Below, piece after piece: positions 8,001-33,149 of a stretch of 52,215 nt of DNA (position 1 is its first letter; every line of letters starts with the position of its first letter). The stretch comes from Deltaproteobacteria bacterium (lineage in GTDB: Bacteria > Desulfobacterota > RBG-13-43-22). The notes below the pieces were generated by a model. That model searched no databases and was not told the DNA's origin. It saw only the letters and a list, made by a program, of their open reading frames with translations. The position numbers were made by a program, and so were the translations under genes. Location: positions 1 to 52,215 of the forward strand of contig JACRBX010000046.1 of the NCBI GenBank assembly GCA_016219225.1, given 5' to 3'.

Positions 8001-8084
8001 TCGATCACCCTCTCAGATAAAAAATGTTCTTTTGTTTGATAGGCTCAACAGTTAACACTTTATATGCGGTGTGGATTGGCTATT

Positions 8085-8113
8085 GCTATACCATAGGAGG
8101 GTAATCAAGTCAA
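8085..8113 (-). promoter_or_regulatory. Sigma-70-type promoter of the activator gene
   Basis: On the minus strand TTGACT (8113-8108) and TATAGC (8090-8085) are separated by exactly 17 bp, about 85-110 bp before the activator start. This fits a housekeeping promoter for the regulator/lipB operon. Confidence 0.6.
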
Positions 8114-8119
8114 TAGGAA

Positions 8120-8136
8120 TGTATCATTTTGAGACG
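8120..8136. promoter_or_regulatory. Candidate activator operator, site 1
   Basis: TGTATCATTTTGAGACG is an imperfect palindrome (TGTATCA / TGAGACG around TTT) with the same 17-bp length and TGT-N-TC...GAC layout as the sites at 9243, 10534 and 14684. It lies directly upstream of the -35 box of the activator promoter, so it may mediate autoregulation. Confidence 0.45.
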
Positions 8137-8152
8137 GATTTGAGCAATAAGG

Positions 8153-14815: not shown

Positions 14816-14890
14816 TTTTTCAATGTAATCACATACGGGTCTCTGATGAAAAACACCCGACAAACTCATTATTAAACGGTGAGGATTTTT

Positions 14891-15874
14891 ATGGATATAA
14901 AAAATGACAGGCTATGCGGACTCTATACCACAATGTTAAAAATTCGCCTCTTTGAAGAGCGGATTATCGATCTTTACGCCAGGGGCATGGTGCCGGGATT
15001 GGCCCATTTGTACATCGGGGAGGAGGCGGTGGCCGCCGGGGTCTGTGCGACCCTGAGGGAGGATGATTACATTACCAGCACCCATCGCGGACACGGCCAT
15101 GTCATTGCCAAGGGAGCGGAACTCAATCCCATGATGGCCGAGCTGTTCGGAAAGAAGAGTGGCTATTGCAAGGGAAAGGGAGGTTCCATGCACATTGCGG
15201 ACATGGCCATCGGTATCCTGGGGGCCAATGGAATTGCCGGTGGTGGACTTCCCATTGCCGTGGGCGCGGGGATGTCTGCCAAATGGCGGGGGACCGACCA
15301 GGTAACCGCCTGTTTCTTTGGGGATGGATCTTCCAACAACGGGACGTTTCATGAGAGCCTGAACCTGGCCTCTCTGCATAAGCTGCCGGTTGTTTTTGTC
15401 TGCGAAAACAATGGGTACGGGATATCGGTCAGCCAGGAAATGCACCAACCCATAAAAGACATTGCCATCCGGGCCATTGGTTTTGATATGCCCGGGGTGG
15501 TAGTGGACGGCAACGATGTCATCGAAGTCTATAAGGAGGCGGAAAAAGCCGTCAGACGGGCTAGGGCAAAGGAGGGTCCGACCCTTATTGAGTGTAAAAC
15601 CTATCGGTGGCGCGGACACCATGAAGGCGACCCCAATCAAGGCGGGCGCTATCGCACCAAAGAGGAGATCGAAGCCTGGAAAGAAAAGGATCCCATTAAA
15701 CGGTTGGCCCAAAAGCTGATTGTGGAGAAGATCATATTAAAGAAAAGGCTAACCGCCCTTGAACAGGAGATCAACGAGGAGATTGATCGGGCCGTGGATT
15801 TTGCCGATAAAAGTGCCTTTCCGGCCATGGAAGCGTTATACGAAGATGTTTATGTACAGGAAGGTGAGAAATAA
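14891..15874 (+). CDS. acoA: Acetoin/2-oxoacid dehydrogenase E1 component, alpha subunit
   Basis: Alpha half of the thiamine-diphosphate E1 that decarboxylates or cleaves the substrate and passes the acyl group to the lipoyl arm. The 327-residue product has the thiamine-diphosphate motif GDGSSNNGTFHESLNLA through ENN, plus HRGHGH and the KGKGGSMHI segment typical of the AcoA/PdhA family. A GTG at 14879 is in frame, but GGTGAGG sits 6 bp before the ATG at 14891. It overlaps the beta subunit by one base (TAATG). The nearby AcoR-like activator supports an acetoin-type complex, but pyruvate or another 2-oxoacid or diketone cannot be excluded. Confidence 0.9.
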   Translation: MDIKNDRLCGLYTTMLKIRLFEERIIDLYARGMVPGLAHLYIGEEAVAAGVCATLREDDYITSTHRGHGHVIAKGAELNPMMAELFGKKSGYCKGKGGSMHIADMAIGILGANGIAGGGLPIAVGAGMSAKWRGTDQVTACFFGDGSSNNGTFHESLNLASLHKLPVVFVCENNGYGISVSQEMHQPIKDIAIRAIGFDMPGVVVDGNDVIEVYKEAEKAVRRARAKEGPTLIECKTYRWRGHHEGDPNQGGRYRTKEEIEAWKEKDPIKRLAQKLIVEKIILKKRLTALEQEINEEIDRAVDFADKSAFPAMEALYEDVYVQEGEK

Positions 15875-16854
15875 TGAGAATGATCACGTATGCCCAGGCG
15901 CTGAATGAAGCCTTGCGGGAATGTATGAGACAGGACGAGAAAGTGGTTTTGCTCGGAGAAGATATCGGCCGATACGGTGGTATCTTTCAGGTGAGCGCTG
16001 GACTGCTGGATGAGTTTGGGCCCCAGCGGGTGATGGATACGCCCATATCCGAGGCCGGATTCGTCGGCGCCTGTGTCGGGGCGGCCTTGACGGGAATGCG
16101 GCCGGTGGCTGAAATTATGTTCATTGATTTTTCCACGGTCGCTATGGATATGATAATCAATCAAATGGCCAAGATGCACTATATGTTCGGGGGCAGGGGT
16201 CGGGTCCCGATGGTTTTGCGGGTCAATATCGGGGCCGGCCGGGGCACGGCGGCCCAACATTCCCAGAGCTTCCATGCCCTGTTTATGCACATACCCGGCC
16301 TATTGGTTGCAGCCCCTTCGACGGCCTATGATGCCAAAGGGTTGATGATCGAGGCCATCAGAAATGATAATCCGGTTATCTTTGTAGAGCACAAAAAACT
16401 CTATAATGAAAAAGGCCCTGTCCCCGAAGAGAGCTATACCATTCCCTTTGGTCAGGCTGAAGTCAAAAGAGAAGGAAAAGACCTGACCATCGTCGCCACC
16501 CATGCCATGGTGGTGCGTTCTCTCGGGATAGCTGAAGCGTTGGCCAGGGAAGGAATTGAAATCGAGATTGTCGATCCAAGAACATTAACCCCTTTGGATA
16601 AGGGAACCATTCTCGATTCCGTCAAAAAAACCGGGAGATTGTTGGTGGCCGATGAGGGCCACAAGACCTGTGGTGTGGCCGCTGAGATATCGGCCATGGT
16701 CGCTGAGGAAGCCCTCTATTACTTAAAGGCCCCTGTCTTGAGAGTATGCTCGCCCGATACACCTGTGCCGTTTTCGCCACCACTGGAGAAGGCCTTCATC
16801 CCCGATGAAAAAGACTTATTACCGGCCATCAGGCATCTGATGGAGTATGTCTGA
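15874..16854 (+). CDS. acoB: Acetoin/2-oxoacid dehydrogenase E1 component, beta subunit
   Basis: 326 residues of the transketolase pyrimidine-binding plus C-terminal domains. Recognisable parts are the start ITYAQALNEALRECMRQDEK, GEDIGRYGGIFQVSAGL, DTPISEAGFVGACVGAALTG, and the C-terminal IEIVDPRTLTPLD. The E in SEAGF activates thiamine diphosphate. Together with the alpha subunit it forms the alpha2beta2 E1. The ATG overlaps the alpha stop and the E2 gene follows after 14 bp with GAGAGGAGG, so translation is tightly coupled. Confidence 0.92.
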   Translation: MRMITYAQALNEALRECMRQDEKVVLLGEDIGRYGGIFQVSAGLLDEFGPQRVMDTPISEAGFVGACVGAALTGMRPVAEIMFIDFSTVAMDMIINQMAKMHYMFGGRGRVPMVLRVNIGAGRGTAAQHSQSFHALFMHIPGLLVAAPSTAYDAKGLMIEAIRNDNPVIFVEHKKLYNEKGPVPEESYTIPFGQAEVKREGKDLTIVATHAMVVRSLGIAEALAREGIEIEIVDPRTLTPLDKGTILDSVKKTGRLLVADEGHKTCGVAAEISAMVAEEALYYLKAPVLRVCSPDTPVPFSPPLEKAFIPDEKDLLPAIRHLMEYV

Positions 16855-16868
16855 GAGGAGGATGTTCT

Positions 16869-18215
16869 ATGGCCATTGAAGTTGTTATTCCCATGCTCGG
16901 TATAACTATTGAGAAGGGAACGATCGTGGAATGGTTGAAGCAGGAAGGGGACGCCGTTGAGAAGGGGGAGATCATTTTAATCCTCGAGGTGGAAAAGGCG
17001 ACCACGGAAGTTGAATCACCGGCCTCCGGGATCCTGGCTAAAATACTGATCCCCAAAGGGGTTGAGGTGCCCATACTCTCCGTGGCCGCCATCATAACCC
17101 GGCCCGGGGAGGAGTTGCCGGCCCAATATGCTGCTCACGTATCAGGGGGGGGTGCGCCAAAACCTTCAGGGGAAGGGGTTAGTCCGGTGATGTCGGTTGA
17201 GGTCTCTACCGCATCAACCCGGTCCCAGGAAGGGATTGGGGCCGTACCTGCTGCCCGAAGATTGGCCAAGGAGCATGGTATTGATCTGATCGGTATTACC
17301 GGCACTGGACCTGGCGGGAGCATCCTGCTCAGAGATGTGGAGACGTCTCTGAGCAGGACTCCCAAAGAGGTTGAACCGGCTGCCTCAACCCTGGCCCGTA
17401 AACTGGCTGAAAAGAAGGCCGTCCCGCTGGGGGAGGTTGAAGGCCACGGGATCAGGGGACGGATCATGCGGGCTGATGTTATAACCTATATCGAAAAGGT
17501 TGAGCAGGCTGGTCCGGGATTGGGTGTCACCATTCCTATGAGCAGCATCCGACAGGTCATTGCCAGACGGATGTCGGAGAGCGCCTTTACCGCACCTCAT
17601 ATCTATTTTTTTGCCGAAGTTTGTCTTGATCCGTTAATGGAGTACCGGAAAGCGGTATTGCCCGATTTCGAGAAGGCCTTTAAGTTACGTCCCTCCATAA
17701 ACGATTTTCTGATCAAGGCGGTGGCCTTGAACCTCTGTGATTTCCCTATGCTTAATGCCCGAATCAAGGGGGATGGGATTCAAATCATGCCCGAGATCAA
17801 TATGGGTCTGGCCGTCGCCGTTCCCGAGGGATTGGTCGTACCGGCCATTGCCCTGGCCGATCGCTGTGGGCTGGTGGAGATAGTCCGGCAGCGGACCGAT
17901 CTGGTGAAACGGGCCAGGGAAGGGAATTTGAGCCTTGAAGAGATGCAGCGAGGCACCTTCACCATTTCCAGTCTGGCCCAGTACGACATCACCCATTTTA
18001 CGGCCATACTCAATCCACCGCAGAGTGGTATCCTGTCCGTGGCCAAGACCGATGAGAAGCTGGCCCTGGTGGATGGACGGGTCGAGGTCAAACACGTGGT
18101 CCAATTGGGGCTATCAGTGGATCACCGGATCATTGACGGGGCCATGGCGGCTGATTTTCTCCAGAATCTCAAATGGAAAATGGAGAGACCGGCTTTCACG
18201 TTTCTCACTTTGTAG
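16869..18215 (+). CDS. acoC: Dihydrolipoamide acyltransferase (E2)
   Basis: 448 residues. An N-terminal lipoyl domain (1-78) has the modified lysine K43 in EVEKATTE. Two peripheral-subunit-binding segments follow: about 122-158 (VPAARRLAKEHGIDLIGITG) and about 172-208 (ASTLARKLAEKKAVPLGEVE, then GRIMRADV). The catalytic core (about 215-448) carries the active-site DHRIIDG. E2 moves the acyl group from lipoyl to CoA and forms the core of the complex. Two binding segments are unusual, since one is normal. LipA and LipB encoded at 5.3-9.0 kb would make its cofactor. Confidence 0.93.
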   Translation: MAIEVVIPMLGITIEKGTIVEWLKQEGDAVEKGEIILILEVEKATTEVESPASGILAKILIPKGVEVPILSVAAIITRPGEELPAQYAAHVSGGGAPKPSGEGVSPVMSVEVSTASTRSQEGIGAVPAARRLAKEHGIDLIGITGTGPGGSILLRDVETSLSRTPKEVEPAASTLARKLAEKKAVPLGEVEGHGIRGRIMRADVITYIEKVEQAGPGLGVTIPMSSIRQVIARRMSESAFTAPHIYFFAEVCLDPLMEYRKAVLPDFEKAFKLRPSINDFLIKAVALNLCDFPMLNARIKGDGIQIMPEINMGLAVAVPEGLVVPAIALADRCGLVEIVRQRTDLVKRAREGNLSLEEMQRGTFTISSLAQYDITHFTAILNPPQSGILSVAKTDEKLALVDGRVEVKHVVQLGLSVDHRIIDGAMAADFLQNLKWKMERPAFTFLTL

Positions 18216-18233
18216 ATGGATCAGGGAGGAGTC

Positions 18234-19628
18234 ATGTACGATCTGGCAATTATCGGTGGAGGTCCGGGCGGCTACGTGGCGGCCATCAGGGGGGCACAGA
18301 ATGGTTTGAAGGTCCTGTTGATTGAGAAGGATTCCCTGGGTGGGACCTGCCTGAACCGAGGGTGTATTCCTACCAAGTGTTTTATCCACGACGTTAAACT
18401 TCTGGAAGAGGCCAAAAGGTCTCCGGTTATAAAGGGGACCGAGGCCCTTTCCATTGATCTGGACAAGATGGTGGCCCGTAAGCGCAAAACGGTAAAAACC
18501 CTGGTAGGTGGGCTCGGGTCCCTGATGAAAGCTAACGGCATAGACGTGGAACAGGGCCAGGGGGAGTTGATTGCCCCGGGGCGGATAAGGATACAGTCTC
18601 ATCAGGGGACAGACAGGGAGCATGAGGCCAGGCAGGTGATCCTGGCTACGGGATCAAAACCGGCTGTTCCTTCTTTCATTGAAGCGGATGGCCGGTTTGT
18701 TCAGACTACCGATGAGGCCCTGGATCCCGAAGATATACCGGAAAAATTGACGATCATCGGCGGCGGTGTGATCGGTCTGGAGATGGCCACTATCTATCGA
18801 AACTTAGGCTCTGAGGTCACAATTCTGGAGCTGCTTACGGATATTATCACTAATGAAGAGATTGAGATCCGACGGGCCATGCGGATGCTTATGGAGAAAC
18901 GGGGGGTAAAGATCCACCTCAAGACCAAGGTCCAGGAGGTAGTTCGTCGGAAAGGGAAGGTCCAGGTCGTCTATGAGGGGAATGACGGTCTTACTGAGCG
19001 TATTCAGTCAGACAGAGTACTCATGGCCACCGGGCGGGTTCCCGTTCTCGACGGTATTAATGCCAATAAACTGGGATTAGGCCTGAATGGGATCTTTGTC
19101 AAGGTAAACGCAAGGCTTGAAACCAATTTGCCGGGGGTCTATGCCATAGGGGATCTGAACGGAGGCCTGATGCTGGCACACAAGGCTTCGGCCGAGGCCG
19201 AGGCGGTTATTGTCAACATCTTGGGAGGGTGCAAGGAAATAAGGCCGGAATTGATCCCGCGCTGCATCTGGGGATTTACTGAAATCGGTTCCGTCGGCTT
19301 GACAGAGGAAGAGGCAAAGAAGACCGGACGGTCGATAAAGGTAGGCAAGTTTCTTTATCTGAACAGTCCGGCAGCCCAGGCCAGGGAGGATGTGGATGGT
19401 ATGGTAAAGATCATCGGTGATGCCGAGACAGGGGAAATACTGGGGGTCCATATCATCGGTCCCCGGGCCACGGATCTTATCGGAGAGCCGGTCATGGCCA
19501 TGACCATGGAATCGGTGGTGGAGGACCTGTCCGAGGTGATCAAACCTCACCCGACCTTGAGTGAAACCATTGTGGAGGCGGCCATGGATTGGAATGGTCG
19601 GGCCATCCACCGTCCTGGTAAGAGATAG
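18234..19628 (+). CDS. lpd: Dihydrolipoyl dehydrogenase (E3)
   Basis: 464 residues. It reoxidises the dihydrolipoyl arm of E2 with FAD and NAD+. Motifs: FAD-binding IIGGGPGGYVAAIRGAQNG near the start, redox-active disulfide GGTCLNRGCIPTK, NAD-binding IIGGGVIGLEMATIYRNLG, FAD-binding YAIGDLNGG and the C-terminal HPTLSE with the active-site His-Glu pair. An in-frame ATG at 18216 abuts the E2 stop, but AGGGAGGA lies right before the ATG at 18234 and the protein then begins MYDLAIIGGG, so 18234 is used. Its last 177 bp are repeated 7.7 kb downstream. Confidence 0.94.
   Translation: MYDLAIIGGGPGGYVAAIRGAQNGLKVLLIEKDSLGGTCLNRGCIPTKCFIHDVKLLEEAKRSPVIKGTEALSIDLDKMVARKRKTVKTLVGGLGSLMKANGIDVEQGQGELIAPGRIRIQSHQGTDREHEARQVILATGSKPAVPSFIEADGRFVQTTDEALDPEDIPEKLTIIGGGVIGLEMATIYRNLGSEVTILELLTDIITNEEIEIRRAMRMLMEKRGVKIHLKTKVQEVVRRKGKVQVVYEGNDGLTERIQSDRVLMATGRVPVLDGINANKLGLGLNGIFVKVNARLETNLPGVYAIGDLNGGLMLAHKASAEAEAVIVNILGGCKEIRPELIPRCIWGFTEIGSVGLTEEEAKKTGRSIKVGKFLYLNSPAAQAREDVDGMVKIIGDAETGEILGVHIIGPRATDLIGEPVMAMTMESVVEDLSEVIKPHPTLSETIVEAAMDWNGRAIHRPGKR
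19452..19628 (+). repeat. Direct repeat of the lpd 3' end, copy 1
   Basis: The last 59 codons of lpd. Position by position it matches 27188-27364 with 11 differences in 177 bp (about 94%), nearly all at third codon positions. The intact gene carries this copy. Confidence 0.95.
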
Positions 19629-19896
19629 AAAATGATGAATAAAAAATCGAAACCAAATGACTTGATTTGTGGGATTAACGAATTGATATTATTTAATGAT
19701 TCTTTATTGTGAAGCGCGAGTTTAATCCCCCGCACCTTGGGGCATTCATTTTAGATGAATAAGATTTTGCTGGGATTTATAACCTGAAAAGATTTGCCAC
19801 GTCACTAACGCGGCAACGGCTTTTATCGAGAGACTTGATTTCCTGGCTGTCGAGAAAGATGTACAAACACATTCAGGTAAATCAGAAGAGGGCCAA

Positions 19897-20952
19897 ATGA
19901 AAAAAAGCAAATACAGCGATTCCTCAGGCAATGCACGCCAAGAAGGCATATCTGATGTTGGTAAAGCGGAAGTTCAAAGAAACCAAGGCAGGTACAAGCC
20001 AAGCCAGGAGACCATCGTCCTGGGGACTTCGGCCCTCATCGCTATCATCCTGAGTATCACTTTAGAGGGTTTTTTTTCCCTGGGCAATTTTTTTGCACTG
20101 CTTCGATCGATTTCTGTCCTTGGCGTTTTTGGCCTTGGCATGGCCATTGTGGTGATCGGCAAGGGAATCGATCTTTCAATAGTGGCGATTGGCTTTGCAA
20201 CGGGCGCATTGTCCGTCAAGATGATCAATGCGGATTACTCCCTTGTTTTGACGCTGTGCGTATGTATTGCGATTGCATGTGGTTTGGGGATAATAAATGG
20301 TTTCCTTATCTCCATTGTGGAGATTCCGGCTCTGTTCGCAACGTTGGCTTCTTCGTTTCTATCTCTCGGGATCGTCCGCAGTACATATGTTCCGAATAAC
20401 GTGGCGAATCTGGCTCAAGAGCACAATGAACTACTGCGTTTGGGAGGGAATATTGCGGGCCATATCCCCATACCCGTGATCATTTTCACCCTTTGCGCTT
20501 TAGTGGTGTACCTGTTTCTTTCTCGAACAGTCCGTGGACGCTTCATCTATGCCCATGGAGATAATGCAGATGCGGCACGCTTAACCGGAATCGCGGTGCG
20601 TCCCTTGACCATGGTGGAATATGGATTATCAGCCGTCATCGGATACATCGGGGGTATGATGATGGTGATATCGAGCGGAGTGCTGCAATATCAAGTTGTA
20701 GAGGGCACCTTTATTTATGATATCATCCTGGTGGTGGTTCTCGGAGGCGTCAGTCTGGTGGGGGGACGCGGGAGCGTGATATGTGTCATTGCCGGGTCCC
20801 TGCTGATTGGTGTGATGAGAAATGCCATGACGATTATGAATATAGATGCACAGATCCAAAATATCATTATGGGGGGGGTGTTGCTTATGGCTCTTGTGGT
20901 GGACAGTTATGTACATCCTCGGGATGACGAAACGGCAAAGCAAGGCGACTGA
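19897..20952 (+). CDS. Ribose-class (CUT2) ABC transporter permease
   Basis: 351 residues of the RbsC/BPD_transp_2 family, about eight to ten membrane segments after a hydrophilic 45-residue N-terminus. The signature GKGIDLSIVAIGFATGALS and the C-terminal VVLGGVSLVGGRGS ... GSLLIGVMRNAM are typical. With the other permease (22312), binding protein (20985) and ATPase (25661) it makes a complete importer of the sugar type. The long charged N-terminus is unusual. A 268-bp gap before it has only a small CCCC/GGGG hairpin near 19727-19741. Confidence 0.9.
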   Translation: MKKSKYSDSSGNARQEGISDVGKAEVQRNQGRYKPSQETIVLGTSALIAIILSITLEGFFSLGNFFALLRSISVLGVFGLGMAIVVIGKGIDLSIVAIGFATGALSVKMINADYSLVLTLCVCIAIACGLGIINGFLISIVEIPALFATLASSFLSLGIVRSTYVPNNVANLAQEHNELLRLGGNIAGHIPIPVIIFTLCALVVYLFLSRTVRGRFIYAHGDNADAARLTGIAVRPLTMVEYGLSAVIGYIGGMMMVISSGVLQYQVVEGTFIYDIILVVVLGGVSLVGGRGSVICVIAGSLLIGVMRNAMTIMNIDAQIQNIIMGGVLLMALVVDSYVHPRDDETAKQGD

Positions 20953-20984
20953 TGAAAACTCACTAAAAAGAAGGGAGAGAACTA

Positions 20985-22028
20985 ATGTTTGGATTAAGAA
21001 ATTTAAAGGCAAGTAAATTTTTTTTGAAGGGTATGCTTATTCTCGGGATTCTATGTGCACTAGTGGTCTGGTCTACTATGGCTTTCGCGAAAGAAGATCA
21101 GCGCACCGAACTTAGCGAGAAATTCACTAAAGCCGTCAAAGGAAAGACAGTGGCGTGGTCGTATTGTTGGGCCGGCATCCTGGAGACAGAATGGACCGAC
21201 ATAATGCGGCTGAACTTTGCGCGCTATGGAATTAAATTCATTGCAAGGGATAGCGATTTAAAGCCTGATGTCCAGCGTCAGGCGATTGAAAGCCTTATTG
21301 TCCAGCGCCCGGATGTTCTGGTGGTGCAGAGTGTAAACCAGACCAATACGGCGCAGGTAATCAAAAAGGCCATGCAACAGGGAATTTTTGTGGTGCAGGT
21401 TAACATGCCCTCGGTTCAGGTGAGTGATGGATTTGTAGGTATTAATGTTCCCCAGGTGGGCCGCATGATCGCCCAAGACATGATCAAGGAGATTGGCGGA
21501 GGTAAAACTTCCGGCAAGGTCGCGATCATTGAGGGTGATACGGCTGCGCCCTATTCCCGCGACCAAGCGGAAGCCGCAATAGCCGAGTTCAAAAAAGATC
21601 CCACCATTAAGGTCGTTTCACGTCAGCCCGCTGTTTGGGATCCCAACAAAGGCAACGAGATCATTTCCACCGTGATTCAGGCGCATCCCGATTTGGCCGC
21701 CGTTTACAGTGTCTGGGGACCGCAGTCCGCCGGTGTGGGCCAGGCTTTGAAACATGCCGGATCGAAAGCGAAGGTGTGGGTTGCCAGCGACGGCCAGATG
21801 CCCGACTGTGACCTGCTGAAGCAGGGGTTTTTTCACAAGGCTCTGTCTTATCGGGGAGATATTCTAGGAGAAGATATCGTAGCAATGGTTCTGCATTTGT
21901 TGCAGAACAAAGATGTTGTCAAGCCTGGGCAAAGGCAAATTGCCCATTATACGGCTCTTTTCTGGGTCAATGGACCGGCGGAAATTCCATACTATTGCTG
22001 GCCGCCGATAAAAAAATCGATGAATTAA
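20985..22028 (+). CDS. Ribose-class ABC transporter substrate-binding protein
   Basis: 347 residues of the periplasmic_binding_protein_4 (RbsB-like) family. A signal or anchor segment (FFLKGMLILGILCALVVWST, ending MAFA) precedes the two-lobed body, with RQAIESLIVQRPDVLVVQSV, then GKVAIIEGD and AVYSVWGPQSAGVGQALKHAG. AAGAAGGGAGAG precedes the ATG. It starts 32 bp after the permease, in one operon. The ligand is not evident; the accompanying lactonase-like propellers suggest a sugar lactone, glycoside or similar cyclic compound. Confidence 0.88.
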   Translation: MFGLRNLKASKFFLKGMLILGILCALVVWSTMAFAKEDQRTELSEKFTKAVKGKTVAWSYCWAGILETEWTDIMRLNFARYGIKFIARDSDLKPDVQRQAIESLIVQRPDVLVVQSVNQTNTAQVIKKAMQQGIFVVQVNMPSVQVSDGFVGINVPQVGRMIAQDMIKEIGGGKTSGKVAIIEGDTAAPYSRDQAEAAIAEFKKDPTIKVVSRQPAVWDPNKGNEIISTVIQAHPDLAAVYSVWGPQSAGVGQALKHAGSKAKVWVASDGQMPDCDLLKQGFFHKALSYRGDILGEDIVAMVLHLLQNKDVVKPGQRQIAHYTALFWVNGPAEIPYYCWPPIKKSMN

Positions 22029-22090
22029 AGTGAAATAGCCTGACGGGCTTCTGATATTGCTGGAAACTAATAGAAGACCTCGATGTTGCA

Positions 22091-22189
22091 AAAGCCGAGG
22101 ATGCCGGAGATCCGAGACGTCAGAGGCGAAGTAGTACTAAGGTACTGCGAGCCCTTGACAACAAAGGAGATGTGGCATCTCACGGCTTT
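22091..22189. repeat. Imperfect inverted-repeat element in the transporter operon
   Basis: The 283-bp gap 22029-22311 holds an element with AAAGCCG at the left end (22091) and CGGCTTT at the right (22183-22189). Internal parts pair as GATGCC/GGCATC and GGCGA/GCGAG-like stretches, meeting at AGTACTAAGGTACT near 22133-22146. It looks like a non-autonomous, MITE-like palindromic repeat of deltaproteobacterial type. Confidence 0.55.
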
Positions 22190-22311
22190 ACCGAAGGGTA
22201 AAAATTGATCGAGTGACATAAGCAAAATCTATTTAATTAATAAAGTATCACTTCTGTTCAATTTTTATGCAACAATGTGGTAGACTGATAAAGTAAAAGG
22301 AAGGCAAAAAT

Positions 22312-24468
22312 ATGAGTTCAACCGCCTCGGGCTTCAGGCTTAATGAAGTGATAATGCGCTTCTGGTACAGGCACACGCCTCAATTATTCCTGAGCGAATT
22401 GCTCGAAAAAAGATGGATGGAACCGATTATTCCGTTCACCATGCTGTGCTTAGTGTTTCTGACGTCCATTCTGTTTATACCCGGCTATATGTCCATAGTC
22501 CAGCAACAAATTTTGATGCAGGAGTTCGCCGATTTGGGTCTGGTGACGATAGCGATGGCGGTGACCATCATGTCCGGTGGTATCGATTTGTCGGTTGGCG
22601 CGGTATTCGCTTTGGGATGCTTTCTTGCGATATACCTGCACCTGGTCCTGGGATTGCCTTTACTGGTGGTTTTTATCAGTGAACTAGTGTTAGGTGCGTT
22701 ATTAGGGATGGTGAATGGCGGTCTGATCGCTTATGCGAAAACACGACCCTTTTTGACAACCATAGTTACCCTCATTATTGGTCGAGCCGTCTACACAAAG
22801 CTGGTAACAACGTCCGCCTCCGCGTTTGCTGACGTTGCCGGCAGGGAAGGTGGGGCCGTTTGGGATTTTTTGGGCAGTGGCGCCATTTTGGGTGTGCCTA
22901 CCAACATGGTTATCCTTATTGTTGTGGGGGTGGGGTTTCATTTTTATTTAACCAGGCTGCGGCCAGGTGTGCATATAATGGCCGTCGGCTCCAGCCGTAA
23001 GGCGGCTCGGCATGCTGGTATCAACGATAAGTGCGCGATTTTTTTCGCTTATGTGATATCCAGCATGCTCGCCACATTGGCTGGCATGCTGTTCGCTTGC
23101 CAACAGAACAATGCAGGTGTCCAAGTGGGAGATGGGTGGGAAATAAATGCTCTGGCCGGGGCCGTGCTTGGCGGCATAAGCCTTTCAGGGGGCCGGGGAA
23201 CCATGGCGCGAGCCCTGATAGGCGGCTTAATCGTTTACATTGTGCTTAACGGCCTTACAAACATAGGTTTGTTGGGAGGAATGATTAAAGGCGCCGCGGG
23301 GCTTCTTCTGTTGATAGCGGTGGGCCTCGATGTCAAGTGGTTTAAGAATAAAAGCAAAGCCTTGCAGAAGATATACGTGACTCCAAGTTGGGTCGATTTT
23401 CAAAAGGCGCCTTCTATAGCTCGAGTTAGTGGCAGTCCCTATGCTGAGAATGATCGCCTGCTCAATGCCGAAGCCCTTGGCTTCGATCAAATCGAAGGCC
23501 CGGAAGACATTATTCTGGATTGCCAGGACAATCTTTACGGTGTTGATCGTCGAGGTCATATCATGCGTTTCCAACCTCCTGATTATAACGTTGGAAAAGT
23601 GTTTGCCAGAATTGGTGGACGTCCCTTGGGAATGACACTTGATCGGGATGAAAACCTTCTGGTCTGCGTAGCTGGCATGGGTGTGTATGGCGTTAAACCC
23701 GACCGTACGGTTTTCAAAGTCACAGACGAGACAAATCGTACCAGGTTCAGGTTGAAGGATGACTCACGCATTCTCCTGGCGGACGATCTGGACATTGCAC
23801 CGGACGGGAAAATTTACTTCAGTGACCCATCTATACGGTATCCTCTGGAAGAATGGGCGCTGGACGGATTCGAAGGACGCGGCAATGGACGGGTTATCTG
23901 TCATGATCCCGGGACGGGAAAAACCAAAACTATACTAAGAAATTTAAACTTCACGAATGGTATTTGCCTCTCACACGACGGGAACTCAATTTTGATAGCC
24001 AGTACATATGGATGCCGGATTTACCGTTATTGGATCGCAACAGGGAGGGCTGGGACTTTAGAGGTGCTCATTGACAACCTGCCCGGTTATCCAGACAACA
24101 TTAACCGGGCTTCGGATGGAAGATATTGGCTTGCTTTAGTGGGGCTTCGCGCGCCAGCCTATGATATCGCGATGGCTGCCCCTTCATTTCGGCGACGTAT
24201 GGTCAAGCAAATCCCGTCAGACGAGTGGCTGATTCCTGGGATCAATTACGGTTGTATCGTTAAGTTCGATGACCAGGGAAAGGTGATTGAGTCATTATGG
24301 GACCCATCTGCGGATTCGCACCCGACGATTACTTCAATCCGCGAGCATAAGGGTTACCTATACATCGGCGGCCTTGAAAATAATCGAATCGGACGCGTGC
24401 GGTTACCGAATGCCGATCCGGATTGGACAGGATGGGAGTCGTATTGGGGCCAGAAGCGGCAATATTAA
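22312..24468 (+). CDS. ABC permease fused to a strictosidine-synthase/SMP-30-like propeller
   Basis: 718 residues in one uninterrupted frame. Residues about 35-345 are an RbsC-like permease (TIMSGGIDLSVGAVFALGCF, then GAVLGGISLSGGRGTMARAL). After a short linker (about 346-385), residues about 386-718 are a six-bladed propeller of the strictosidine-synthase/SMP-30 type: GPEDIILDCQDNLYGVDRRG, DDLDIAPDGKIYFSDPSIRY, GRGNGRVICHDPGTGKTKTI, LNFTNGICLSHDGNSILIAS and NLPGYPDNINRASDGRYWLA. Whether the propeller lies in periplasm or cytoplasm depends on the number of membrane segments and was not computed. It could hydrolyse a lactone as it arrives, or be a binding module. Ribosome-binding site AAAGGAAGG is good. 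Confidence 0.88.
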   Translation: MSSTASGFRLNEVIMRFWYRHTPQLFLSELLEKRWMEPIIPFTMLCLVFLTSILFIPGYMSIVQQQILMQEFADLGLVTIAMAVTIMSGGIDLSVGAVFALGCFLAIYLHLVLGLPLLVVFISELVLGALLGMVNGGLIAYAKTRPFLTTIVTLIIGRAVYTKLVTTSASAFADVAGREGGAVWDFLGSGAILGVPTNMVILIVVGVGFHFYLTRLRPGVHIMAVGSSRKAARHAGINDKCAIFFAYVISSMLATLAGMLFACQQNNAGVQVGDGWEINALAGAVLGGISLSGGRGTMARALIGGLIVYIVLNGLTNIGLLGGMIKGAAGLLLLIAVGLDVKWFKNKSKALQKIYVTPSWVDFQKAPSIARVSGSPYAENDRLLNAEALGFDQIEGPEDIILDCQDNLYGVDRRGHIMRFQPPDYNVGKVFARIGGRPLGMTLDRDENLLVCVAGMGVYGVKPDRTVFKVTDETNRTRFRLKDDSRILLADDLDIAPDGKIYFSDPSIRYPLEEWALDGFEGRGNGRVICHDPGTGKTKTILRNLNFTNGICLSHDGNSILIASTYGCRIYRYWIATGRAGTLEVLIDNLPGYPDNINRASDGRYWLALVGLRAPAYDIAMAAPSFRRRMVKQIPSDEWLIPGINYGCIVKFDDQGKVIESLWDPSADSHPTITSIREHKGYLYIGGLENNRIGRVRLPNADPDWTGWESYWGQKRQY

Positions 24469-24510
24469 CTCTCAATAACAAATTAAAATAATTTATGAAG
24501 GAATATTGTT

Positions 24511-25623
24511 ATGTCAGTCATTAAAGAGTTTATTTACTCACTAATATTCCGTAATCAGGATATTTCGGGGTTCCACGTGAAGCCTGTAATGGACGGCGAT
24601 TTTGCCGCCAACAACAGGCTGGATGAAGCTATCGTGCTGAAGTCCGAGGTGACTGCCCCTGATGATTTATTGTCAGGGTCCGAAGGGAAATATTATGTTT
24701 CGAGCGGTAAGGAAATACTAGTGTTCGATGGTCCGGATTTTACTCGTCGAGGTTTGTTTGCCAAGTTTGAGGCGGAAGTAGGCGGGCTGGAATGGTCGCA
24801 AGACGGAGAATTGTTAGCCTGTGTGTCAGGACGAGGAGTTTGTGTGTTGAGTGAAAGTGGTGTTGTTAGTAAATGGTTGGAATCAGTCGGTGGTGTGAAG
24901 TTGGCGTGCCCGACAGCAGTGACTACGGCTGCGGACGGAACAGTGTATGTAACGGACGGCTCCCGCCGGAATCCAACTGATAAATGGCTACAAGATTTGA
25001 TGACGAATGAAAAAGGAAGCGGACGATTGATATCCTGGGAGAACGACTTGGGCAATGCGCGCGTCGTTGCCGAAGGGCTTTCTTGGCCGGCGGGAGCAGT
25101 TGTATCACATGATGAGAATCAAGTCTTGGTTACGGAGGCCTGGTCCCATAAACTATGCGCAGTGGAGCGGCAGAGCGGTGAAAGACGTTATCTTGTAGCC
25201 AATTATGCGGGCTATCCATGGCGTATCACGCGAGGCCTGAAAGGTGATTACTGGCTTGCTTTTTTTGCCGTGCGCTCGCAATTAATCGACTTTGTCTTGC
25301 GTGAACGTGATTATTGCGACAGAATGATGGCGGAGGTACCGACCGAGTTTTGGGTCGGACCGGCGCTTTCGTCCAAATCCCACTATCTCCATCCTACCCA
25401 GTACGGACGTATAAAGACGCTGGGTGTGCAGAAACCTTGGGCGCCTGCCCGTTCTTACGGCCTAGTTGCAAGATTAGATGCTGATGGCCAGGCGGTGGAG
25501 AGTTTTCACAGTCGGGTGGGTGGAAAAGTACATGGGGTGACAAGTGTGCGATGCATAGACAAAAGGATCATCGCTTGCTCGAAAGGAGATGACAAGCTCG
25601 TGGAGGTAGACCAGTCCACCTAG
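24511..25623 (+). CDS. Strictosidine-synthase/SMP-30-like propeller protein
   Basis: 370 residues resembling the propeller part of the upstream fusion: CPTAVTTAADGTVYVTDGSR, GSGRLISWENDLGNARVVAE, GLSWPAGAVVSHDENQVLVT, YAGYPWRITRGLKGDYWLAF, and a C-terminal GKVHGVTSVRCIDKRIIACS. The N-terminus has no clear signal peptide, so a cytoplasmic place is likely. Family members include gluconolactonases and other calcium-dependent esterases. The calcium ligands cannot be confirmed by eye. It is co-directional with the fusion gene (42 bp gap) and the ATPase gene (37 bp gap). Confidence 0.75.
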   Translation: MSVIKEFIYSLIFRNQDISGFHVKPVMDGDFAANNRLDEAIVLKSEVTAPDDLLSGSEGKYYVSSGKEILVFDGPDFTRRGLFAKFEAEVGGLEWSQDGELLACVSGRGVCVLSESGVVSKWLESVGGVKLACPTAVTTAADGTVYVTDGSRRNPTDKWLQDLMTNEKGSGRLISWENDLGNARVVAEGLSWPAGAVVSHDENQVLVTEAWSHKLCAVERQSGERRYLVANYAGYPWRITRGLKGDYWLAFFAVRSQLIDFVLRERDYCDRMMAEVPTEFWVGPALSSKSHYLHPTQYGRIKTLGVQKPWAPARSYGLVARLDADGQAVESFHSRVGGKVHGVTSVRCIDKRIIACSKGDDKLVEVDQST

Positions 25624-25660
25624 AGAGACCGTAATCATTAGAAGATAGGAAATAAAGATA

Positions 25661-27187
25661 ATGATAGCTATGGCAAGTGAAACGTCGGCGCAACTTACGG
25701 AATTACACATTGTAAAGGGAAGCAAAATTTACGGTGGTGTTCATGCAATTGAAGATCTCGACTTCGATGTGCATGGCGGGGAAATTCACGCGTTGCTGGG
25801 TGAAAACGGATCCGGTAAATCGACGCTTTGCAAGGCAATCGCAGGGGCGATCGAACTGACTTCAGGCAGTATTCGTTTGAACGGCAAAGAGGTGCATTTC
25901 CATTCGCCGGCAGAGGCATTGGGAAAAGGGATCACAATGGTTTATCAGGAGACCAGTTTGGTTCCCTCAATGACTGTTGCGCAAAACCTCGAACTCGGTA
26001 TGGAGGATTTATTCACGATCTATCGCAAGATTAATATCAGGGCGCAACAATCGCAAGAATCGCTTAATTTTCACGTTAACCCGTTAGCATTGGTAGAGAC
26101 ATTAGGAACCGCTCAACGGCTGATGGTGGAGATAGCACGAGCGGTACGGCAAAAAGCGAAAATCATCATCTTTGATGAACCAACCGCCAGCCTGACACCA
26201 GAAGAAATTCAGCATTTGTTTCATCTCTTCAATCGGCTGAGGGCCGAGAATGTCGCTATTATTTTTATTTCGCACGCGATTGAAGAGGCTCTGAAAATGG
26301 CAGATCGTATAACTATTCTGCGGGATGGAAAACTTATCACCACAACTAAAGCAAGTAACCTGGATCGGCCTCAGATCGTTCGAATGATGGTTGGCCGTGA
26401 TATCTCCAATCACAAAGCACCGGGTGGAGCTAAATCATCTGCCCAAAAGCACCGAGAGAAGGTTTTATCGGTGGAAAATGTTACGATGGGCAATATCGTG
26501 AAGAACATGTCGTTTTCTGTGTATTCTGGCGAAGTGCTTGGCATCTTCGGCCTTGTGGGAGCCGGTCGTACCGAGATTGCCCACATCATTGCCGGAGTAA
26601 GGAAGCGCAATCTTATTTACGGAGGTATGATCTACCTGAAAGGCAAACCGATTCGCTACCGGGTCCCGCGGCAAGCAATCAAAGAAGGTATTGTGTATAT
26701 CACCGAGGATCGCAAGAACAACGGCTTTTTCGAAACTATGACTGTGGATGACAATATATATATCGGCTATGTCGCTTCCCTAAAAGGACACAGGATGTTG
26801 TACTCGCGTCCTGAACGAAAGCGTGTGGCTGATCATTGGGTTAAGACCCTAGGGATATCCGCGCTTAAACGCAGCCTTAAGATCATAGAATACTCAGGGG
26901 GTAATCAGCAAAAAGTTACGGTGGCAAAATCTCTGGCTCAGGACCCTTCAGTGATAATCTTTGACGAACCGACTCGCGGTGTGGATGTCGGTGCCATTAC
27001 TCAGATTCATGAGTCCATACGTTCCATAGCCGCAGAAGGCAAGGCTGTTGTGGTTATATCGTCTTATCTGCCAGAGATTCTTACAATCTCCAATCGCATC
27101 CTCGTGGCTCGATCCGGCAAGATTGTAGAAGAGATAAATAGAAGCGATGCAACGGAAGAAAAAATTATGTTCGCTGCCGTTCACTAA
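25661..27187 (+). CDS. Ribose-class ABC transporter ATPase
   Basis: 508 residues with two nucleotide-binding domains, as in RbsA. The first has Walker A GENGSGKST and Walker B IIIFDEPTASLTPEE. The second has the degenerate Walker A GLVGAGRTE, the signature YSGGNQQKV and Walker B IIFDEPTRGVDVG. The degenerate second Walker A is normal in this family. The first ABC signature in domain one (normally LSGG) reads LGTAQRLMVEIARA, which is weak. An alternative ATG lies at 25670. The stop codon directly abuts the second lpd-end copy. Confidence 0.93.
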   Translation: MIAMASETSAQLTELHIVKGSKIYGGVHAIEDLDFDVHGGEIHALLGENGSGKSTLCKAIAGAIELTSGSIRLNGKEVHFHSPAEALGKGITMVYQETSLVPSMTVAQNLELGMEDLFTIYRKINIRAQQSQESLNFHVNPLALVETLGTAQRLMVEIARAVRQKAKIIIFDEPTASLTPEEIQHLFHLFNRLRAENVAIIFISHAIEEALKMADRITILRDGKLITTTKASNLDRPQIVRMMVGRDISNHKAPGGAKSSAQKHREKVLSVENVTMGNIVKNMSFSVYSGEVLGIFGLVGAGRTEIAHIIAGVRKRNLIYGGMIYLKGKPIRYRVPRQAIKEGIVYITEDRKNNGFFETMTVDDNIYIGYVASLKGHRMLYSRPERKRVADHWVKTLGISALKRSLKIIEYSGGNQQKVTVAKSLAQDPSVIIFDEPTRGVDVGAITQIHESIRSIAAEGKAVVVISSYLPEILTISNRILVARSGKIVEEINRSDATEEKIMFAAVH

Positions 27188-27364
27188 ATTATCGGTCCAC
27201 GGGCCACGGATCTTATCGGAGAACCGGTCATGGCCATGACCATGGAATCGGTGGTGGAGGACCTGTCCGAGGTGATCAAACCTCACCCGAATTTGAGTGA
27301 AACCATTGTGGAGGCGGCTATGGATTGGAATGGTCGGGCCATTCATCGTCCGGGGAAGAAATAG
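27188..27364 (+). pseudogene. Isolated lpd 3' end, repeat copy 2
   Basis: The last 59 codons of a dihydrolipoyl dehydrogenase without the rest of the gene, starting the base after the ATPase stop. It reads IIGPRATDLIGEPVMAMTME through AIHRPGKK and stop. It differs from 19452-19628 at 11 of 177 bases, mostly silent; the only amino-acid changes are Thr to Asn in HPTLSE and the final Arg to Lys. It lies 38 bp before the livK ATG. Confidence 0.92.
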
Positions 27365-27402: not shown

Positions 27403-28671
27403 ATGTTTGAAAAGATGAGGAGAAAAACATGGAGTTTCTTGAAGGTTGGGTTGTCGCTGGCAGTGTTTAGTATTTTCTTTGTCACCGCCGCATTAGGGGC
27501 ACCGCTCAAAGTGGGAATAGTCGAAACACTCAGCGGCCCCCAGGCTTCAACCGGCTTGAAATGCCTCGCGGCTGTCAAGTATGTGTTAAACGCTTTTAAT
27601 GCCGCCGGCGGCTGGGGTGGGGCGCCGGTCCAACTGCTTGAATATGACAGTCAAGGCAATCCGGCTGGCGCGGCTGATAAAGTAAAGGCGGCCATTGCCG
27701 ACGGGGTTCAAATAATTTTCCAAGGATCATCATCGGCTATAGGTGGACAGGTTTCGGATGATGTGCGCAAACATAATCTGCGTAATCCCGGCAACGAGAT
27801 TATCTATCATAACTTAGGCGCCCAGGCAATGGAGTTTACCGGTAAGAGAAATCATTTTTACCACTTTCGGTATTCCCCCAACGCGGAAATCTACGTGAAG
27901 GCACTGGTGTCGGCCATGAAGAAAGCCGGTGTTCTTGGGAAGCGAGTCTATTCCATGAACCAGAACTATTCGTGGGGTCAGGATGTGCAAAAGGCTATTC
28001 TTGATTACGCTTCCCAGGGGGGCTACCAGGTGGTGGGGGCGACGCTCCATGACGTGAATAAGATTCAGGATTTTGCCCCATATGTAGCCAAGATCAAAGA
28101 TTCCAATGCAGAAACAGTCATTACGGGAAATTGGTCCAATGATTTATTGCTGTTGATGAAGGGTGTCCATGCAGCCAATCTGAAAGTCCGTTTTGCAACG
28201 ATCTTCCTCGATCAGCCCGGCAATATAGGCAATGCCGGTGAGGTGGCCCTCGGCTACTATCTCGCCAATGGTTTCAATGCCGAAGGCGGGGGGAAAGAAG
28301 GGGAAAAATTTGCCGGGGATTACAAGGCGAAAACAGGCCACTATCCGGATTTTGTCGAGCCACCAATAGTCTTTGGTATGCAAATGCTCTGTGAGGCTTT
28401 GAAGAAGGTAAAACCTGAGGGAGGTAAGCTGAACACCACTACCCTGGTCAAGGCGATTGAAGCTGTTCAGATCACTACTCCTGTCGGAAAATGGAGGATG
28501 CGCGCCGAGGATCACCAAGTCCTGTTGCCCATTGTCTTATCCGTAGTGTCTAAGGATGCCAAGTATAAAGTTGATGATACCGACATGGGCTTTAAGCCAG
28601 TCAAAGTACTAACCGCCGATGAGGCAGCCTGTCCGGTGCAGGCCGACAACGCTATGCAACGGCCTAAATGA
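27403..28671 (+). CDS. livK: Branched-chain amino-acid type ABC transporter substrate-binding protein
   Basis: 422 residues of the LivK family with a signal peptide (KTWSFLKVGLSLAVFSIFFV, cleaved near LGA) and the typical mature start PLKVGIVETLSGPQASTGL. AAAGGAGG lies 8 bp before the ATG. The frame runs back into the lpd-end repeat, but that part is clearly not native. It is the first gene of a full Liv transporter set. The ligand may be a short organic acid. Confidence 0.9.
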   Translation: MFEKMRRKTWSFLKVGLSLAVFSIFFVTAALGAPLKVGIVETLSGPQASTGLKCLAAVKYVLNAFNAAGGWGGAPVQLLEYDSQGNPAGAADKVKAAIADGVQIIFQGSSSAIGGQVSDDVRKHNLRNPGNEIIYHNLGAQAMEFTGKRNHFYHFRYSPNAEIYVKALVSAMKKAGVLGKRVYSMNQNYSWGQDVQKAILDYASQGGYQVVGATLHDVNKIQDFAPYVAKIKDSNAETVITGNWSNDLLLLMKGVHAANLKVRFATIFLDQPGNIGNAGEVALGYYLANGFNAEGGGKEGEKFAGDYKAKTGHYPDFVEPPIVFGMQMLCEALKKVKPEGGKLNTTTLVKAIEAVQITTPVGKWRMRAEDHQVLLPIVLSVVSKDAKYKVDDTDMGFKPVKVLTADEAACPVQADNAMQRPK

Positions 28672-28700
28672 AAGAACATTCGGGTTGTTTACTGTGTTAA

Positions 28701-28741
28701 GCCCTCATACTCCACGGGGCACCGGCGAATCATGAAAATTT
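28701..28741 (+). repeat. Short dispersed repeat copy
   Basis: CCCTCATAC...GGGGCACCGGCGAATCATGAAAATT, related to the copies at 13713, 40655, 40811 and 38-66. Confidence 0.55.
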
Positions 28742-28759
28742 AGTTTAACGCGCGTAACC

Positions 28760-28845
28760 CATCATTCCTCGCGAAGGCGGGAATCCAGGCAAGGCAAAAC
28801 CAGATATAACCACTGGATTCCCGATAGAGACATTCGGGAATGATG
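28760..28845. repeat. REP-like inverted repeat between livK and livH
   Basis: Left arm CATCATTCC...GCGGGAATCCAG (28760-28788) pairs with right arm CTGGATTCCCG...CGGGAATGATG (28813-28845) around a 24-bp spacer. This is the widespread ATTCCCGC/GCGGGAAT intergenic palindrome type. It occupies most of the 273-bp gap before livH and may reduce downstream transcript. Confidence 0.7.
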
Positions 28846-28944
28846 GAGGAAAGAGCAACCGTAATACTAATTCAGACCTACTTTCGTATTAAGGGTCAGC
28901 CGGCCGCTTCAAAAATGTTTCTGTAATAAAAAGGGGGAGATTCC

Positions 28945-29886
28945 ATGGACTATTTTGTCACTTCCTTGCTCAACGGGACTATTTACGGCTTATTACTGTT
29001 CATGGTCTCGGCCGGCTTGACCCTTATTTTCGGCATGATGGGGGTTCTTAACTTCGCCCATGCCTCTTTTTACATGGTAGGGGCCTATTTCGCTTATACC
29101 CTGCAAAAACCTCTGGGGTTCTGGCCGGCCATCGTGGTAGCAACGCTTCTGGTTGGAGGGGTCGGGAGTATCACCGAGCGCTATTTTCTCCGGCGGGTGC
29201 ATCGATACGGACACGCCCATGAGTTACTGTTGACCTTCGGGCTGTCTTTTATTATCGCCGAACTGATCAAAATGTTTTATGGCAATTATCCGGTGGATTA
29301 CCGGCTGCCGAAATTCCTGGATTTTGCCGCCTTTAATCTATTCGGTTCCGATTATCCGGTTTACCGGCTTATCATGGGGGGTATCGCCATAGGAATGTTT
29401 ATTATTATTTATCTATTACTCACTCTGACACGGGTCGGAATCGTAGTCCGCTCGGCCATCTATAAGCCCCGTATGGCCGAGGCCCTCGGTCACAATGTGC
29501 CCCTGGTCTTTATGGGTGTCTTCGGTATGGGGGCGGCTTTGGCCGCCCTGGCCGGTGCCGTGGCCGGTCCCTTTTATACCACCAATCCCAATATGGCTCT
29601 GGAACTCGGTGTTCTGGTATTTGTAGTAGTGGTAGTCGGAGGCCTGGGTTCCCTGGAAGGGGCTCTTCTGGCCTCTCTCCTCATCGGACTGGTTACTTCC
29701 TTTGCCGTTGGTATCGATCTTAGTCTGTCTGACTTTTTTGCCCTTTTTGGGGCCCGGGCCTGGGCTGAAAAGATGGGGGACCTGATGACGCTTAAAATTT
29801 CCAGTCTGGCGGCAACCATCCCCTATCTGTTTATGCTGATCATATTACTGGTTCGCCCCTCCGGCCTGATGGGGGAAAAAGAATGA
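28945..29886 (+). CDS. livH: Liv-type ABC transporter permease LivH
   Basis: 313 residues, about eight membrane segments. Family signatures: GLTLIFGMMGVLNFAHASFYMVGAY near the start and VVVVGGLGSLEGALLASLLIGL near the end. AAAGGGGGAG precedes the ATG. It overlaps livM by 4 bp. It pairs with LivM to form the membrane channel. Confidence 0.93.
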   Translation: MDYFVTSLLNGTIYGLLLFMVSAGLTLIFGMMGVLNFAHASFYMVGAYFAYTLQKPLGFWPAIVVATLLVGGVGSITERYFLRRVHRYGHAHELLLTFGLSFIIAELIKMFYGNYPVDYRLPKFLDFAAFNLFGSDYPVYRLIMGGIAIGMFIIIYLLLTLTRVGIVVRSAIYKPRMAEALGHNVPLVFMGVFGMGAALAALAGAVAGPFYTTNPNMALELGVLVFVVVVVGGLGSLEGALLASLLIGLVTSFAVGIDLSLSDFFALFGARAWAEKMGDLMTLKISSLAATIPYLFMLIILLVRPSGLMGEKE

Positions 29887-31205
29887 TAAAGAAATCGTCA
29901 CGTTGGTTGATTACCGCCGCGGTCGTTCTTTTGAGCGTAATGCCTCTTGTTTTGTCCCAGTCGCTGATCAATGCGGCCATACAGATGTTGATCGCCTTGT
30001 TGTTCGCCTGCGCTTTCAACTTGCTTTGCGGCCAGGGGGGGATGCTCTCTTTTGGTCATTCGGCTTATTTTGGTGTGGGGGCTTTTACCACCATACATAT
30101 AATGAGTGACATAGGGGGGAAAGGCCTTTTGCCTACACCGCTGCTGCCCCTGGCAGGCATGTGCGGAGGGTTCCTTTTCGGTCTGGCCGCCGGCTGGTTT
30201 TCCACCAAGAGGACCGGGGTCTACTTCTCGATGATCACCCTGGCCATTGCAGAGTTGTTGCATGCTATCTCTTCCCAACTCAAGGGGTTGTTCGGCGGTG
30301 AGGCTGGCATTTCGGTCATGCGGGCGCCGGCCTGGGGTTTGAGCTTCGGCAATGCCACCCAGATGTATTATCTGACTCTCGGATGGGTGCTCCTCTCGCT
30401 TGTCATGCTTTATTTTTATACCGGCACCCCGGTCGGCCGGCTCACCCTGGCGGTCCGTGAAAATTCCCACCGCCTGAGATTCCTGGGTTATAAAGTGCAC
30501 ACTTTAAAGGTTCTGGCTTTTGCCGTCTCGGCCATGTTTGTCGGTGTCGCCGGGAGCCTGCAGGCCATCAACAACGAGGCCTGCAACTATGTGATCTTTG
30601 ATCTGCGTCTCTCCGCAGAGGTGGTGCTCAATACCTATATCGGTGGAGTCAATGTTTTTCTCGGACCGGCTTTGGGTGCGGCGGTGATGACCTTTTTCGG
30701 CTATGCCGTCTCCGACCTGACCCGGTCATGGCTCTTGTATCAGGGGGTTTTGTTTGTCCTAGTGATGTTATTCATGCCGACGGGGCTTGCCGGTCTGATG
30801 CAGTGGTGGATGGAGGCCCGTCGAAATCATTCTTTTGTGGCGTTATTGCCGATTCTGGCCCTTTCCCTCCTGTCCGCCCTGCTGCTTATCGTGGGGAGCG
30901 TGTTCATGGTGGAAATGACCCAGCGCATATTCTCCCAGGATTATCAATCCCTGTTGAGGGTGGCCCAATCGAGCGCCTGGCCGCCGGTGTCCCTTTTCGG
31001 CCGCCAGTGGCCGCCGGGGTCTTTGTTGACCTGGTCAGCGCCCCTGCTGTGCCTGATCTGCGGTTTATTCATGGTGAAAATGACGCGAAAGCAATGGTTC
31101 ATCCTGAAGGAGAACAATTCGGATCCTGAAGGGGCGGCTATCCAGGATAGCGAGGTCGGAAAAGCTTCAAGTCAGCCGAACCGCCTTCTCGTTGATGAGG
31201 AATGA
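29883..31205 (+). CDS. livM: Liv-type ABC transporter permease LivM with C-terminal extension
   Basis: 440 residues. The first 310 are a normal LivM permease (NLLCGQGGMLSFGHSAYFGVG and YIGGVNVFLGPALGAAVMTF). About 130 extra residues follow, with two further hydrophobic segments (FVALLPILALSLLSALLLIV and LLTWSAPLLCLICGLFMVKM) joined by a polar loop and ending in a charged tail. The role of the extension is unknown. The ATG overlaps the livH stop by 4 bp. Confidence 0.92.
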   Translation: MIKKSSRWLITAAVVLLSVMPLVLSQSLINAAIQMLIALLFACAFNLLCGQGGMLSFGHSAYFGVGAFTTIHIMSDIGGKGLLPTPLLPLAGMCGGFLFGLAAGWFSTKRTGVYFSMITLAIAELLHAISSQLKGLFGGEAGISVMRAPAWGLSFGNATQMYYLTLGWVLLSLVMLYFYTGTPVGRLTLAVRENSHRLRFLGYKVHTLKVLAFAVSAMFVGVAGSLQAINNEACNYVIFDLRLSAEVVLNTYIGGVNVFLGPALGAAVMTFFGYAVSDLTRSWLLYQGVLFVLVMLFMPTGLAGLMQWWMEARRNHSFVALLPILALSLLSALLLIVGSVFMVEMTQRIFSQDYQSLLRVAQSSAWPPVSLFGRQWPPGSLLTWSAPLLCLICGLFMVKMTRKQWFILKENNSDPEGAAIQDSEVGKASSQPNRLLVDEE

Positions 31206-31207
31206 GC

Positions 31208-31963
31208 ATGAACACTTCGATACTTTCTTTGCACAACGTGCATAAATCATTTGGCGAGGCCCTTATTCTGAACGGCGTTAATCTGGAACTTTTCCCGGGG
31301 GAGCGCCACGCCGTGATCGGTCCGAACGGCGCCGGCAAATCGACCTTGTTTCACCTGATTTCCGGCCAGTATTCCCCTGACCAAGGAGAGATTTTATTAA
31401 AAGGCCGCCCGATTCAAGGGCTGGCACCCCAAAAAATCAATCATCTGGGACTGGCCCGTTCTTTTCAGATTACCAATATCTTTCCCCGGCTTACCGTGTA
31501 TGAGAACCTGAGGATTGCGGTTATGCAACGTTTCGGCCTGCAATACACGCTGTGGAAACGGATCTCCGGGATCGCTTCCGTCAGTGAAAAAACCGAACAT
31601 CTTATGGAACTCCTGCGGTTAAGCCCCCGCCGGGGGACGCCGGCCGGGGAATTATCCTATTCGGAGCAGCGCTCGCTGGAGATCGGTATGACCCTGGCCT
31701 CAGACCCGGAGATCATTTTACTCGACGAACCCATGGCGGGTATGTCCCGGGAAGAAACCGACTATACCATCACACTCATCCGCGAGTTGACGAAAAACCA
31801 TTCCTTATTTATTGTAGAGCACGATATGGATGTAGTCTTCTCTCTGAGCGATAGAATCAGCGTGTTGGTCTATGGTACCATCATCGCTACCGGAACGCCT
31901 GATGAAATTCGCAACAACAACAAAGTACGGGAGGCCTATCTGGGCCAGGAGGCGGGCCGATGA
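31208..31963 (+). CDS. livG: Liv-type ABC transporter ATPase LivG
   Basis: 251 residues: Walker A GPNGAGKST, signature LSYSEQRSLEIGM, Walker B IILLDEPMAGM, H-loop IVEHDMD. An ATG at 31202 overlaps the livM stop, but GAGGA is 6 bp before the ATG at 31208, which is preferred. It overlaps livF by 4 bp. It powers the LivHM channel together with LivF. Confidence 0.92.
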   Translation: MNTSILSLHNVHKSFGEALILNGVNLELFPGERHAVIGPNGAGKSTLFHLISGQYSPDQGEILLKGRPIQGLAPQKINHLGLARSFQITNIFPRLTVYENLRIAVMQRFGLQYTLWKRISGIASVSEKTEHLMELLRLSPRRGTPAGELSYSEQRSLEIGMTLASDPEIILLDEPMAGMSREETDYTITLIRELTKNHSLFIVEHDMDVVFSLSDRISVLVYGTIIATGTPDEIRNNNKVREAYLGQEAGR

Positions 31964-33136: not shown

Positions 33137-33149
33137 ATAGGAGGGCATG

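Follow-up and report, generated by a model that had tools for sequence, protein, structure and literature searches.

Gene content of the window and the duplicated lpd end

The window, that is, the whole stretch of DNA analysed here (52,215 nucleotides), is contig 46 of a genome assembly of 5.93 Mb in 353 contigs. Its central part contains, in this order, acoA-acoB-E2-lpd, a block of transporter and propeller genes, a second copy of the lpd 3' end, and livK-livH-livM-livG-livF-VOC-SDR:

14879..18215, + strand: acoA, acoB and E2, coding for E1 alpha, E1 beta and E2 subunits (NCBIfam PDH models; syntenic orthologues)
18216..19628, + strand: lpd, intact dihydrolipoyl dehydrogenase, 470 aa (TIGR01350, 484.8 bits, cut-off 408.8)
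19452..19628, + strand: repeat copy 1, the 3' 177 bp of intact lpd, with the HPTLSE motif kept
19629..19896, + strand: low-GC gap between lpd and the block (268 bp, 37.7% GC), the left edge of the insert
19897..20952, + strand: permease 1 (BPD_transp_2, Pfam PF02653)
20985..22028, + strand: periplasmic binding protein (Peripla_BP_4, Pfam PF13407)
22070..22215, no strand assigned: hairpin-forming intergenic repeat
22312..24468, + strand: permease 2 fused to a strictosidine-synthase/SMP-30-like propeller, 718 aa (Pfam PF02653, PF03088, PF08450, PF20067)
24511..25623, + strand: separate propeller protein, strictosidine-synthase/NHL-like (domain match; order conserved in relatives)
25661..27187, + strand: two-domain sugar-type ABC ATPase, 508 aa, the right end of the cassette
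27188..27364, + strand: repeat copy 2, an orphan lpd 3' end in which the HPT motif is changed to HPN
27403..32685, + strand: livK, livH, livM, livG and livF, branched-chain-type ABC transporter (domain matches; relatives)
32708..33896, + strand: VOC/glyoxalase-family protein and short-chain dehydrogenase (SDR), the last genes of the conserved operon

The products of acoA, acoB and E2 are predicted to be subunits of a 2-oxoacid/acetoin-type dehydrogenase complex. Upstream of these genes, on the opposite strand (6015-9034), lie a gene for a sigma-54-dependent activator that contains GAF and PAS domains and a radical SAM gene resembling that of lipoyl synthase; it is possible that the two provide regulation and cofactor supply for the aco operon. 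An ORF of 139 aa upstream of acoA (13892-14311) resembles lpd only weakly (29%) and was discounted as a second remnant of that gene; it is a fragment of another flavoprotein (pyridine nucleotide-disulphide oxidoreductase).

As stated in the original prediction, the last 177 bp of lpd recur behind the block with 11 mostly silent differences (94% identity): 9 of the 11 mismatches fall on third positions of codons and the other two on second positions, and two of the 58 residues differ, HPTLSE becoming HPNLSE and the last residue changing from R to K. The match found in the repeat search runs just 2 bp beyond the lpd stop codon and includes an exact run of 67 bp (19488-19554 and 27224-27290). Only these two copies were detected in the whole genome (E = 2e-74 for the second), and the next longest direct repeat in the region 12000-36000 is 27 nt long with 78% identity; the lpd-end repeat is far above chance level. 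Copy 2 begins with the base that directly follows the TAA of the ATPase ORF and continues in the ATPase frame, again as the original prediction had it, and the further claim that only transporter and propeller genes lie between the copies holds for all five ORFs. The length of the insert proper can be refined to 7559 bp (19629-27187), with a repeat period of 7736 bp.

The insert thus delimited consists of the five genes and two gaps, one of 268 bp and the other of 283 bp; the 268-bp low-GC sequence that separates copy 1 from the block has no second copy in the genome. Domain searches assigned all five genes to transporters or propellers and detected no integrase, transposase or other mobility gene among them. 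No other copy of the cassette was found in the same genome, and a search of the literature for a permease-strictosidine synthase fusion returned none. The GC content at third codon positions is 0.52 in the cassette, compared with 0.62 in the aco genes and 0.61 in the liv genes; codon usage differs most between the aco genes and the cassette (z 7.5) and less between the cassette and the liv genes (z 3.5). The intergenic repeat within the cassette has a DNA fold z-score of -3.9 and looks like a dispersed palindromic element; related copies (73-86% identity) are present on two other contigs of this genome, C260 and C316, and contig C25 has a short match.

The operon and the cassette in other genomes

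In addition to the relatives at L033 and L034, homologs of Lpd were collected, by a sensitive search, from 292 genomes of the order to which the genome of L034 belongs. Five of these genomes (L065-L069) encode, on one strand, acoA-acoB-E2-lpd-livH-livM-livG-livF-livK-VOC, followed by an SDR gene in the four whose contig extends that far; the remaining one, L069, is a short contig that reaches from inside E2 to inside VOC. The gap between the lpd stop and livH is 6-54 bp, and the gene set is that of the window minus the block, with livK at the end. The VOC proteins are 58-64% identical to that of the window and the SDR proteins 62-72% identical in three relatives and 35% in L065, whereas the liv gene products are just 31-52% identical. 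The original prediction proposed to look in relatives for acoABC-lpd followed directly by livKHMGF; the adjacency of lpd and liv is borne out, with livH first and livK last in the relatives. These comparisons suggest an ancestral operon of the form acoA-acoB-E2-lpd-liv(transporter)-VOC-SDR; the match between the relatives and the window is at the gene level only, the relatives having livK last.

The nearest Lpd relative is 71% identical to that of the window, and those at L033 and L034 are 67-71% identical. The latter two loci were considered as instances of the ancestral joint and rejected, the downstream transporters being non-orthologous (28-36% identity). Because L033, L034 and also L064 carry a different, non-orthologous liv-type transporter nearby, the transporter behind the aco-lpd dehydrogenase appears to have been exchanged in the course of evolution. 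At the cut-offs applied, LivK had no match outside the window, either among the relatives or in the L033 and L034 genomes; no close Lpd was found in members of the same genus and family, and no relative turned up that is near enough to reveal an uninterrupted lpd-livK joint.

Within the window, the start of livK, with an AGGAGG site, is only 38 bp past copy 2, a spacing in keeping with a former operon joint, whereas copy 1 is separated from the cassette by the 268 bp of low-GC sequence. Copy 2 is accordingly read as the scar of the former lpd-livK joint of the operon.

The five cassette genes are found in the same order, with permease 1 likewise first, in three other genomes (L077, L078 and L082), and no aco or lpd gene is present in the 11-20 kb read around each of these cassettes. 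These are the loci around the full-length relatives of the permease-propeller fusion, 48-51% identical, in G230, G272 and G442. The ATPase match reaches the last residue in all three cassettes, and the C-terminus AAVH* is common to the window, L077 and L078. Given that the same five genes occur in the same order without aco or lpd in three genomes, the block can be recognised as a complete, pre-existing transport cassette, and in the window its right edge is where its last gene naturally ends. Together with the adjacency of lpd and liv in the relatives of the host operon, this indicates that a pre-existing cassette entered an aco-lpd-liv operon. The layout expected of a donor, with lpd joined to the cassette, was not found in the genomes searched. 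In two genomes (L078:4910-18692 and L077:27-13607), a liv-type transporter operon is located a few kb from the cassette, and the two transporters may serve one pathway.

Divergence of the lpd ends and the route of insertion

Between the two lpd ends, dS is about 0.26 and dN about 0.015. Had the second copy been mostly neutral, about 6 amino acid changes would be expected, compared with the 2 observed. In simulations that placed about three-quarters of the changes in a dead copy, the share expected if only one of the two copies is under constraint, at most two amino acid changes were obtained in 0.7% (P about 0.007); with half of the changes in the dead copy, the frequency was 9% (P about 0.09). 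The low dN relative to dS therefore suggests that the two lpd ends probably diverged for the most part within working genes, the donor having carried another lpd allele. The T of HPTLSE, which we take to be the active-site His-containing motif of the dihydrolipoyl dehydrogenase family, is kept in copy 1 and in 10 of 10 relatives and is replaced by N in copy 2 only; the position of this change in copy 2 fits an untranslated remnant. Because both copies are about equally distant from the relatives, and silent sites in the relatives are saturated, polarisation of the 11 differences through these sequences singled out neither copy as native.

The explanation that we favor, with a probability of roughly two in three, is that a donor cassette was spliced into the aco-lpd-liv operon by a single crossover in the lpd end. 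The original prediction included this option, recombination in the lpd end by a block that carried another allele of it, and it is the option that best accommodates both the gene orders in relatives and the two-allele pattern. The donor fragment would have carried the five-gene sugar-type transport cassette behind the end of a different lpd allele. It may have been circularised or joined end to end, such that the ATPase stop came to abut an internal point of the donor lpd end, and would then have integrated by one RecA-type crossover within the lpd end. The intact lpd would accordingly combine the recipient 5' part with the donor 3' end and have the cassette behind it, and the untranslated 177-bp lpd end beside livK would combine the donor 5' side with the recipient 3' side. 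The proposed single crossover gives no reason why the joint should lie immediately behind the ATPase stop. The GTTCAC that precedes this stop resembles the GTCCAT of lpd, offset by the TAA; the V-H ending that it encodes is native to the ATPase family.

A possible but unlikely alternative is that a second, diverged aco-lpd operon once lay between the cassette and livK and was deleted save for its last 177 bp. Such a history would likewise produce two functional alleles (dS 0.26, few amino acid changes) and leave a remnant attached to the native liv operon. However, it is less economical than a single crossover because it needs two events, the insertion of aco-lpd and the cassette and then a deletion of more than 4.5 kb that ended exactly at the ATPase stop; moreover, no further aco or lpd remnant was found in the window, and in the three other genomes examined the cassette does not adjoin aco genes. 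Duplication of the lpd end within the genome from an identical copy, followed by decay of the second copy as dead DNA, would account for the loss of the conserved T in copy 2 alone; with 9 of the 11 changes at third positions, no stop or frameshift, and the scarcity of amino acid changes in the simulations above (an argument that weakens if half of the changes fell in the dead copy), we consider it quite improbable.

We are very doubtful that the arrangement is an assembly artefact, whether two strains joined in one contig or the 67-bp run misresolved, such that the true state would be an lpd-livK operon plus a 7.7-kb circle. The assembly is fragmented, with 4.8% contamination, and the exact run gives both layouts the same short words, but neither exact run includes the 27187/27188 joint, and words of at least 13 bases that cross it do not recur in the window, so that the assembler needs a real read at the joint; paired reads, furthermore, normally bridge 177 bp. 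Viral contigs, searched for the exact sequence of the joint, gave no match. An integrase-driven island with an attachment site in the lpd 3' end would restore the gene end on one side and leave a truncated copy on the other, as islands in gene 3' ends do; yet the block encodes no mobility gene, the two repeats differ along their length, by 6%, and relatives of the block elsewhere are not behind lpd, which makes this explanation hardly tenable.

Known rearrangements and the possibility of reversion

In E. coli, circularised linear DNA integrates by a single crossover, with duplication of a homologous segment of 109-950 bp beside the insert, and circularisation involves the loss of part of the homologous segment (PMC3240628). 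The lpd locus is similar to this Campbell-type integration, described at lacZ, in that a foreign block lies between direct homologous copies of a gene end, here 177 bp with 94% identity, a length within the reported range; the uninterrupted arrangement is represented among relatives at the gene level only (L065-L069, with livK last). The difference is that the E. coli case involves a laboratory plasmid and fresh events (PMC3240628), whereas here the case is natural and the alleles are diverged. Homology-facilitated illegitimate recombination, which has been proposed to explain orphan genes and gene ends at T6SS effector/immunity and rhs loci (PMC5361080), also resembles the present case in that a new module appears behind a conserved homologous anchor and the old gene end is moved downstream as a remnant (PMC5361080). 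In that process, however, recipient DNA is usually deleted, mostly at microhomologies of 3-10 bp (PMC3240628), whereas here no recipient DNA is missing at the insert; it is duplicated instead, and no clear microhomology is visible.

The sole transposase-like ORF found is at 3194-3982, and neither edge of the insert carries an IS copy or a transposase, unlike a composite transposon. Some genomic islands insert in the 3' ends of genes such as tRNA genes, ssrA and guaA; like the lpd locus, they leave the host gene intact and a truncated end at the other border, but the present block lacks an integrase and is flanked by a long, diverged repeat. Integrase-type islands would have short, identical core att repeats at the two ends; the lpd locus has a 67-bp exact run within its 94% repeat.

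The insertion is a fresh, clear natural example of a kind of rearrangement that is already known. It cleanly records how, in nature, an entire transport module can become connected to a catabolic operon with the gene at the insertion point left unbroken, the incoming DNA itself supplying the gene end that gets displaced. Two conserved units also come to light, an aco-lpd-liv-VOC-SDR operon and a cassette that includes a permease-propeller fusion.

The prediction that recombination between the repeats would remove the block is mechanically correct: by sequence, a crossover in the 67-bp run would yield an intact lpd of 470 codons, 38 bp before livK, and a free circle of 7.7 kb. We consider it highly improbable that the population carries both states, with the cassette in place or out as the circle and lpd and livK rejoined, through frequent recombination; if true, this would amount to a reversible switch that determines which transporter is connected to the dehydrogenase operon.

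Elsewhere in the window, at 43663-51256, genes for a DNA methylase, an AAA ATPase and a ResIII-type protein occur in a row, an arrangement that resembles a locus for restriction-modification or a related defence system.
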